Shown here piece after piece: positions 56,650 through 59,819 of a stretch of DNA of 64,000 bases (positions are counted from its first letter, which is position 1; each line of letters begins with the position of its first letter). The position numbers and the translations under genes are program-made. The stretch spans positions 1,116,001 to 1,180,000 of the forward strand of contig NZ_JACHMC010000001.1 in NCBI RefSeq assembly GCF_014204815.1. The letters run 5' to 3'. The DNA comes from Micrococcus flavus. Lineage in GTDB: Bacteria; Actinomycetota; Actinomycetes; Actinomycetales; Micrococcaceae. Under the pieces are notes generated by a model. That model did no database searches and had not been told where the DNA came from. It was given only the letters and a program-made list of their open reading frames with translations.

Positions 56650-56653
<4 letters not shown>

Positions 56654-57267
56654 GCGGCCATCCCCCGCCACACGGCGCGGGTGAGCTCGCGCAGGCGCTC
56701 GAGGTCGCCGTCGTTGACGATCACGACGTCGGCCACCGCCGCCCGCTGCTCGTCCGTGGCCTGGGCGGCGATGCGGGCCTCGGCGTCTTCGACGCTCATG
56801 CCGCGGTCCTCGACCATGCGGCGGATGCGCTCCTCGCGGGGTGCCTGGACCACGAGGACCAGATCGAACGCGTCCGCCTGGCCCGTCTCCACCAGCAGGG
56901 GGACGTCCTGCACCACGACGACGTCGGGACCCGCCTGCGCCACGATCTCCCGGGCCATCCGCCGCACGCGCGGGTGCACGATCCGGTTGAGGCGCTCGCG
57001 CTGGCCGGCGTCGGCGAACACGATCGCGGCCAGCGCCGCGCGGTCCAGCAAGCCGTCGGCGGCGATCACCCGGTCGCCGAAGGCCTCCTGGACGGCCGCC
57101 AGCCCCTCCGTGCCGGGCTCGAGGACGAGCCGGGCGAGGGCGTCGGAGTCCACGAGCAGGGCGCCGCACCGCTCCAGCTCGGCCGCCACGGCGGACTTGC
57201 CGGCGGCGATGCCCCCGGTGAGGCCCACGTGCAGACGCGGGCGCAGGGTCGGGTCGGTCACGGTCAT
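56650..57267 (-). CDS. coaE: Dephospho-CoA kinase
   Basis: This 205-residue P-loop kinase makes CoA from dephospho-CoA and ATP. Walker A is [11 protein letters not shown] (15-25), followed by the acidic [18 protein letters not shown] with the base-like Asp, and [15 protein letters not shown] with the substrate-binding DVPLL. The lid has [28 protein letters not shown]. It precedes uvrB with a 4-base overlap, a conserved pairing in actinobacteria. A BCCT transporter with a second, degenerate CoaE-like domain lies upstream on the same strand, about 180 bases away. Confidence 0.96.
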
Positions 57268-57397: not shown

Positions 57398-57434
57398 ACG
57401 GGCGCCCGCCCCCGAGCGGGGTGCGGGCGCCCGT
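57398..57434 (-). terminator. BCCT-CoaE-like gene terminator
   Basis: ACGGGCGCCCGC (57398-57409) pairs with GCGGGCGCCCGT (57423-57434), with further CCCC/GGGG pairing inside. It follows the BCCT fusion gene by 16 bases. Confidence 0.75.
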
Positions 57435-57449: not shown

Positions 57450-59819
57450 TCAGCCGACCTTGCCGGCGGCGTGCGGGTCCAGGACGGGGAGGATGCGCTC
57501 GTCCCAGTACGCCCGCACGGCGGCCGCGAGGTCCTCGCGGGTGCCGTCGTTGGGGATCACGGTGTCGGCAATCTCGGCGCGGGCCCCGTCCGCCGCACCG
57601 CCGTCGATGACGGCCCACGCCTGCTCGCGGGACAGGCCGCGGTCGGCCATGAGGCGGTCCACGCGCTGCTCGGCCGGGGCGGTCACGGTGACCACCTGGT
57701 CGAAGTCCCTGTGGCTGCCGGTCTCGGCGAGCACGGCCAGGTCGACCACGAGGACCGCGTCCTCACCGGCGGCCTTCGCTCGCCGGTCCGCCTCAGCGCG
57801 GACCGCGGGAGTGACGACCTCGAGGTAGCGCTGGCGCGCGGCCTGGGACCGGTTCGTCAGCCGGTCGAGCGCACGCAGGTCGACCGAGCCGTCCGGTCGG
57901 ACGATCTCCTCGCCGAAGACGTCGCGCAGCTCGTCCACCAGGGGCGAGCCCGACACGAGCAGGTCCTCCGCCACGTCGTCGAACTCCACGACGACGGCGC
58001 CGAGGCGCTCGAACTCCTCGCCCACCGCGGTGCGGCCGGAGGCGATCCCGCCGGTGAGGCCCACGGTGACGCGGGCCCGCTGGGCGACGGCCTGCTGCTG
58101 GTGCCACGTGTTGGGGGTGTGCGTGTCGAACTCGGGCTCGGTGCCCGGCTCGAACTCGGGGCGGATGACGTACGCGGAGACGTCGCCCTCCTCCTGGGCG
58201 CGGCGGTGGTACTCCTCCGCCGGGAGCACGCGCTTCCACTGGCGGGTGCGGATCGGGCGGGCGGCGCCGGCGTCCTCGCGCAGCGCCTGCACGAGCAGGC
58301 CGGCCTGCAGGACGGTGAGGATCATGACCGGGAAGCCGATCACGATGATGACCTCCTGGAGCGCGTCCAGGCCGCCGTCGCCGGACGTGATCAGGATCGC
58401 GGTGCACACCGCGCCGACGCTGAGCGCCCAGAACACGCGCTGACGACGGGAGACGACATCCTCCTGGCCGTTGGCCATGGCGTCCATCACCAGGGCGCCG
58501 GAGTCGATCGAAGTGATGAAGAAGATCACGATGATGATCAGCGCGAGCGTGGCGATCGGCAGGTAGAGCGGAAGCTCCTGCAGGTACTGGAACAGGGCCG
58601 CCTGGACGTTGCCCTCCTCCACGATTGTCCGGGTCAGGGCGCCGCCGGTGAGCGGGGCCCCCGCGGAGGCGCGGTCCATCGCGAACGCGGAGTTGCCGTA
58701 GATGCCGATCCAGATGATGACGAAGAGGGTCGGCAGCCCGATCGAGGCGCTCACGAACTCACGGATGGTGCGGCCCCGCGAGATCTTCGCGACGAACATG
58801 CCCACGAACGGCGCCCAGGTGACGGTCCACGCCCAGTAGAAGACGGTCCAGGCACCGGACCACTCACCCGAATGGAAGGTGTCGTTGAAGGTGCTCAACA
58901 GGGGAAGCGAGGAGACGTAGCGGCCGGCGGACTCCACGGTGCCGCGGACGACGTCCATCGACGAGGCGGCCCACATGAGGCAGTACACCATCAGGGCGAT
59001 CGCCATGAGGATGTTGATGTAGGAGAGGCGCTTGACGCCCTTGTCCATGCCGGCGAGCACCGAGGTGATCGCGGCAGCCGTGATGACGGCCATGATCAGC
59101 GCCTGGATCCACCCGGCCACGGGGGTGCCGAACACGTAGTTCATGCCGGCGTTGATCTGCAGCGCACCGAGGCCGGTGGACACGGCCACGCCGAACACGG
59201 TGGACACGATGGAGATGGTGTCGATCGTCTTGCCGATGGGGCCGTGGATGCGGTCGCCGATCAGCGGGTAGAAGGCCGAGGACACCCGCGGCGGCAGCTT
59301 GCGCTTGTAGGTGAAGTAGCCGAAGGACAGACCCGGCACGATCAGGATCGCCCACATGTGGACGCCGAAGTGGAAATTCGCGATCGACAGCGCGTTGTGG
59401 GCGGCCTTGTCGCTGAACGGCGCGGTGTCCTCCAGAGGCGGCAGCGCGTAGTGGTACATCGGCTCGGCGATGCCCCAGAACATGAGGACGGCGCCCACGC
59501 CGGCGGCGAACATCATGCCGAACCAGGCGATGCCGGAGTACTCCGGCCGGGAGTCGTCGTCGCCCAGCTTGACGCGGCCGTACCTCGAGAACGCGAGGCC
59601 CAGGGCGAACACGACCAGGAGCGTCGCGCTCAGGGTGTAGAACCAGCCGATGTCGTAGCGGAGCCATGAGGCCCCGATCCCGAACAGGCCCTGGACCTGC
59701 GCGGGGAAGATGCTCATGGCGGCCGTGAACAGGACCACCACGAGGGCGGCCGGGAAGAAGATCGCCGGGGAGGTGCGCAGTCCCAGGCGGTCGTGGAGTT
59801 TCGTGAGGGGTGATGACAT
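57450..59819 (-). CDS. BCCT transporter fused to a degenerate CoaE-like domain
   Basis: This 789-residue protein has two parts. Residues 1-520 form a 12-helix BCCT carrier for betaine, choline, carnitine or similar: [50 protein letters not shown] and [30 protein letters not shown] are typical, and the Gly-rich helix supports sodium-coupled uptake. A hydrophilic linker (521-583) leads to a domain (584-780) like dephospho-CoA kinase, with [14 protein letters not shown] at 587-600; Arg596 replaces the P-loop lysine, and the DVPLL motif is degraded (DLAVLAETG), so kinase activity is unlikely. ATG 59819 is the start. The true coaE is next downstream. The tail may sense osmotic or metabolic state; that is inference. 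Confidence 0.9.

Follow-up and report, generated by a model that had tools for sequence, protein, structure and literature searches.

The 64,000-nucleotide stretch of the Micrococcus flavus genome analyzed here (contig NZ_JACHMC010000001.1, positions 1,116,001 to 1,180,000; hereafter, the window) carries on its minus strand a gene in which a transporter of the BCCT family is joined, in one reading frame, to a domain derived from dephospho-CoA kinase (CoaE). The locus comprises, in window coordinates:

57450..59819, minus strand: BCCT-CoaE fusion gene, 789 amino acids plus stop, open from ATG
58272..59762, minus strand: BCCT transporter domain, residues 20-516 (Pfam PF02028, 528 bits; AlphaFold model versus TmaT, TM-score 0.96 by target length)
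58080..58250, minus strand: linker, residues 524-580 (from an alignment of 28 fused proteins; pLDDT low, 46-72)
57453..58079, minus strand: CoaE-derived tail, residues 581-789 (Pfam CoaE match at 585-761; dN/dS of 0.07-0.30 in close pairs)
58029..58061, minus strand: altered P-loop, residues 587-597, with R596 replacing Lys (from sequence comparison; about four losses of this Lys on the tail tree)
57603..57617, minus strand: tail-specific W735 to D739, on the former lid helix (W735 in 37 of 37 tails and 0 of 44 genuine CoaE)
56650..57267, minus strand: genuine coaE, all motifs intact (above the Pfam and NCBIfam cut-offs; ATG start behind AGGAGG)

The genuine coaE lies ~180 bases downstream of the fusion gene on the same strand and is followed by uvrB, the start of which overlaps the coaE stop. 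In Micrococcus, the block of rpsA, methyltransferase, UPF0029, BCCT-CoaE, coaE, and uvrB is conserved wherever the contig is long enough. The orthologous BCCT gene of Rothia (loci L072-L077 and L085) is unfused and lies between coaE and uvrB or beside them, in the order coaE-BCCT-uvrB, the reverse of that at the fusion locus, and in two Kocuria genomes unfused BCCT genes flank coaE on both sides. BCCT and coaE genes thus adjoin each other in relatives that are free of the fusion; their neighbourhood is old. Between the fusion stop and coaE, a GC-rich inverted repeat with 16-nt arms and a 5-nt loop is located at positions 57398-57434, without a T run; a scan of the locus for promoters and terminators, as well as a search of it for structured RNA, found none.

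The minus-strand frame starts with ATG and contains no internal stop, and Pfam matches cover both the BCCT domain and a complete CoaE domain (119 bits), so the continuous 789-residue frame described in the original prediction was borne out. The 60-residue linker that had been placed between the two parts is present as a stretch of sequence, but a large part of it is the normal C-terminal end of the BCCT subfamily: the first half of the linker carries the conserved pattern RTRQWK.VLP.EEY.RR, which is also found in unfused relatives.

The transporter part is a complete BCCT domain, scoring far above the Pfam cut-off of 27 bits and matching TIGR00842 with 460.7 bits (cut-off 407.55), and a Foldseek search with the full-length AlphaFold model returned TmaT, BetT, and BetP as the best matches. 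The aromatic box of TmaT (W146, W151, Y154, W326) corresponds to F151, W156, L159, and T332 in the fusion protein, with only W151 being kept; Thr at position 332 is common to nearly the whole subfamily, fused or unfused. Conservation of W146, Y154, W326, and W329 is reported to be restricted to carriers of quaternary ammonium compounds (PMC11708041). Of the features that mark Na+-coupled BCCT carriers (GxGxG motif and sodium-site residues), the third Gly of GxGxG is V111 here, and the ATVFG-like and FFITSxDS stretches are conserved. The score of 457.3 bits with the glycine betaine equivalog NF047988 is below its cut-off of 650. Given the differences at three of the four aromatic-box positions and the missed NF047988 cut-off, the designation of an osmolyte carrier is a family-level guess; the BCCT half of the original assignment holds, whereas a role of the fusion protein in osmolyte transport is uncertain. 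A pantothenate importer, considered as a reason for the link to coaE, was unsupported: every Micrococcus genome has panC, and the PanF profile had no match above cut-off in any relative. In Arcanobacterium pluranimalium (L152:10445-12615), the fusion gene is followed by genes for an M20 amidohydrolase and a DUF7916 protein, the former of which could point to the transporter substrate, as a weak hint at most.

A search of relatives for the same architecture, as the original prediction had proposed, recovered the full-length fusion, without a break, in each of the 11 Micrococcus genomes examined, in two further genera of the family, Citricoccus (including 'M. terreus') and Kocuria, and also in Dermacoccus (two genomes) and Arcanobacterium (A. 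bovis, A. ihumii, and A. pluranimalium). The fused set comprises 35 proteins from five named genera and one MAG, and, the partial MAG aside, each tested genome with the fusion also has an intact coaE of its own. That two neighbouring genes were joined by a sequencing or assembly error is an explanation of negligible probability: relatives carrying the two parts as separate genes with a stop between them, which would have pointed to such an error, were not seen, the same unbroken frame recurs across many independent assemblies, and an intact coaE exists besides the fused copy. No carriers besides the known members were found beyond the order among 395 class-level genomes. A plasmid or viral origin of the fusion was rejected because no plasmid record covers 80% of the fusion query and the tail occurs on no viral contig. 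A Citricoccus-like fusion is also found in a MAG (AS06rmzACSIP_140, L101) that is assigned to Gammaproteobacteria; this label is probably wrong or the MAG contaminated. Compared with Kocuria marina SO9-6, the tail in K. marina KCTC 9943 (L068:7067-9322) is without its normal C-terminal end, which may reflect either a frameshift or a sequencing error.

The tree of the tail domain with neighbouring CoaE, also proposed originally, was built from 28 tails, 36 neighbouring coaE, and 19 outgroup coaE. The tails all fall into one clade (99/97), whose sister group (100/98) is the coaE of Micrococcus and Citricoccus, and the BCCT parts from the 35 fused proteins likewise group in one clade (100/99); in both trees, Dermacoccus branches inside Micrococcus and Arcanobacterium beside it. 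The matching clades show a single fusion, with both parts transferred together. The simplest reading is that coaE was duplicated once in the ancestor of Micrococcus and Citricoccus, that the copy was fused once, and that the joined gene then spread horizontally to Kocuria, Dermacoccus, and Arcanobacterium. Neither coaE nor uvrB was found near the Arcanobacterium fusion, indicating that the fusion has left its original locus there. The earlier proposal that a coaE copy was duplicated next door and recruited as a tail is thus supported as regards its origin from coaE and its retention under selection as a transporter part, but not as a recent event: a recent local duplication was rejected, as the tree gives one old duplication in the Micrococcus and Citricoccus ancestor. 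Judged from these sequence comparisons, the gene represents a genuine domain fusion that is conserved and moves horizontally.

To describe the state of the kinase motifs, tails were scored at 52 columns that are nearly invariant in 44 genuine CoaE. The window tail keeps 35 of these positions, the Arcanobacterium tails 35-38, the Kocuria tails 25-35, and six of the seven Citricoccus tails 46-48. The difference between the P-loops of the tail and the neighbouring coaE was exactly as first described, Arg596 breaking the GxxxxGK[ST] pattern, and the DVPLL motif is indeed lost, with DLAVL in its place. Further, T670, A695, V737, and G741 occupy positions at which genuine CoaE is nearly invariant (HP, D[VI]PLL, and the lid R...Q), and the first Asp of DxD is absent. 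D614 and R722, which correspond to the catalytic Asp32 and Arg140 of Mycobacterium tuberculosis CoaE, are present in the window tail. No tail has lost the P-loop glycines G590 and G595, which in CoaE are ligand residues, and R722 is found in 37 of 37. D739 occurs in 35 of 37 tails and, by its conservation along with that of W735, marks a tail-specific constraint around the former lid helix, common to intact and eroded tails.

Losses of CoaE residues follow different patterns between lineages. Micrococcus tails have lost the HP histidine, the DVPLL proline, and the lid Arg and Gln, as well as, in most cases, the first DxD Asp, and one Micrococcus subclade, including the window, has also replaced the P-loop Lys by Arg. 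Kocuria tails mostly keep the P-loop Lys, with the catalytic Asp lost in most, and Arcanobacterium tails have Ala or Thr in place of the P-loop Lys and keep the HP and PLL motifs. By parsimony on the tail tree, next to the changes at the Lys, D614, H670, and P695 have each changed twice and R722 not at all. In M. tuberculosis CoaE, the K14A variant retains ~80% of kcat, while Asp32 and Arg140 are critical and R140A abolishes activity (PMC3019153). The Lys-to-Arg replacement alone, to which the original prediction had appealed, is therefore the weakest argument for a dead kinase. The combined loss of His670, the first DxD Asp, Pro695, lid Arg737, and Gln741 is stronger evidence against kinase activity, and the window tail is likely to be catalytically dead; the description of the domain as dead-looking thus stands on the joint loss of acceptor and lid residues but not on R596, and it is tempered by the presence of D614 and R722. 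With 77.8 bits, the window tail is still above the TIGR00152 cut-off of 65.55 and continues to be labelled a dephospho-CoA kinase by this profile, so that genome annotation may mislead.

Despite this erosion, the tail is retained. The upper bootstrap limit of its dN/dS in close pairs is at most 0.43, and the values are in a range similar to those of genuine coaE (0.13-0.33 in informative pairs), which indicates purifying selection on the tail sequence; the wider pair G000-G002, less reliable than the close pairs, gave 0.55 for the tail and 0.35 for the BCCT part. The AlphaFold2 model of the tail (pLDDT 93, pTM 0.87) had only dephospho-CoA kinases as its best PDB matches, and the CoaE fold is thus predicted to be kept despite the motif erosion. 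In the full-length model (pLDDT 82), the BCCT part resembles TmaT and BetP and the linker is of low confidence, so the placement of the tail relative to the membrane is not fixed by the model.

A tail kept by selection, with enzyme residues lost in several lineages and co-transferred with the transporter, is probably a control module rather than an enzyme. The favoured reading, to which a probability of roughly 0.6 is assigned, is that the captured CoaE domain serves as a cytoplasmic control or assembly module of a BCCT-fold secondary transporter, most likely one that reads a nucleotide or CoA-type ligand. The tail would no longer be mainly a kinase; its kept cleft, with the P-loop glycines and R722, would read the ligand, and its state would be passed to the carrier, a trimer by homology, via a tail-specific surface including W735 and D739. 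Kinase residues have been lost in differing combinations alongside a separate intact coaE, which argues for such a role. Against it stand the six of seven Citricoccus tails that keep the kinase motifs, for which a kinase role is possible, and the D614 and R722 still present in the window protein. Moreover, the ligand site varies by lineage, as in Arcanobacterium, where the P-loop Lys is absent and the acceptor motifs are kept, which is a poor fit to one fixed ligand, and selection on the tail could reflect stability or assembly alone.

A rival reading is a scaffold in the strict sense, in which the CoaE fold aids trimer assembly, stability, or placement and binds no small molecule. The fold and W735 are kept while ligand residues vary between lineages, and CoaE can trimerize: the E. 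coli enzyme was crystallized as a trimer and that of M. tuberculosis interconverts between trimer and monomer, with dephospho-CoA and CTP shifting the balance (PMC3123319), which would suit a trimeric BCCT transporter such as TmaT (PMC11708041). However, retention of the CoaE ligand residues G590, G595, and R722 in all tails speaks against a purely structural part, and this explanation is considered possible but doubtful. The same trimers make a ligand-dependent switch geometrically plausible by analogy: if the tail were a pseudo-kinase sensor, ATP, CTP, or (dephospho-)CoA might, on binding, switch the association of tails under the transporter trimer and so gate uptake by CoA or energy status, a reading of low probability that is put forward tentatively. 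Sensing of CoA or energy status, as first proposed, is still conjecture. Alternatively, the tail might be an active second dephospho-CoA kinase, tethered so that CoA is made at the membrane. The near-intact Citricoccus tails (the one tested exceeds both NCBIfam dephospho-CoA kinase equivalog cut-offs), the TIGR00152 score and the D614 and R722 of the window tail, and the tolerance of M. tuberculosis CoaE to K14A all favour activity, but the window tail lacks the residues listed above, Kocuria tails are eroded further, and all complete genomes with the fusion that were tested have an intact coaE besides, making this unlikely. A decaying relic of an accidental read-through fusion without function is highly improbable; motif erosion and the truncated tail of the K. 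marina L068 assembly would fit it, but dN/dS is far below 1 in all close pairs, on which ground a neutral relic was rejected, nearly all members are full length, and the tail moved to other genera together with the transporter.

BetT is a BCCT carrier in which a cytoplasmic C-terminal part, placed after the last transmembrane helix, controls activity. The same is true of BetP from Corynebacterium glutamicum, which shares with the fusion protein the BCCT fold and a cytoplasmic C-terminal part after the last transmembrane helix (review PMC10710835). The fusion differs from both in its substrate-site residues and in ending with an entire P-loop kinase domain taken from coaE instead of a short charged tail. 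Among solved structures, TmaT, a trimethylamine transporter (PDB 8zw8, 8zxk), is closest to the carrier part (35% identity); it is without a kinase tail, and the fusion departs from it at three of the four location-I aromatic-box residues and at the third Gly of GxGxG. CoaE (PF01121; PDB 6n39, 9bkz, 1jjv) is homologous to the tail over the whole domain, with the predicted fold intact, but the tail is fused to a transporter, has lost several CoaE-invariant residues, and has gained W735. Fused C-terminal control domains are a recognized theme among transporters: MFS transporters with UspA, CBS, or cyclic-nucleotide domains also carry a C-terminal soluble domain on a secondary transporter, for which nucleotide or energy sensing has been proposed (PMC10710835). 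Those belong to another transporter family, whereas the domain here is enzyme-derived. A search of literature largely outside subscription journals found no paper on a BCCT transporter with a dephospho-CoA kinase and none on a CoA-biosynthesis enzyme as a control domain of a membrane transporter. The fused proteins form a natural series on nearly the same transporter, from almost intact tails in Citricoccus, through partly lost motifs in Arcanobacterium and Micrococcus, to strong erosion in Kocuria, and thus allow the change from enzyme to control part to be studied stepwise.

Two Micrococcus genomes, G001 (L021:11517-16433) and G007 (L027:9026-13952), carry a tandem pair of fused genes; in G007, the P-loop position is Lys in one tail and Arg in the other. 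Between the window (57453-59819) and its near relative G003 (L023:7302-9668), synonymous divergence is 0.065 in the BCCT part and 0.317 in the tail, a jump that suggests a recombination breakpoint inside the fusion gene.
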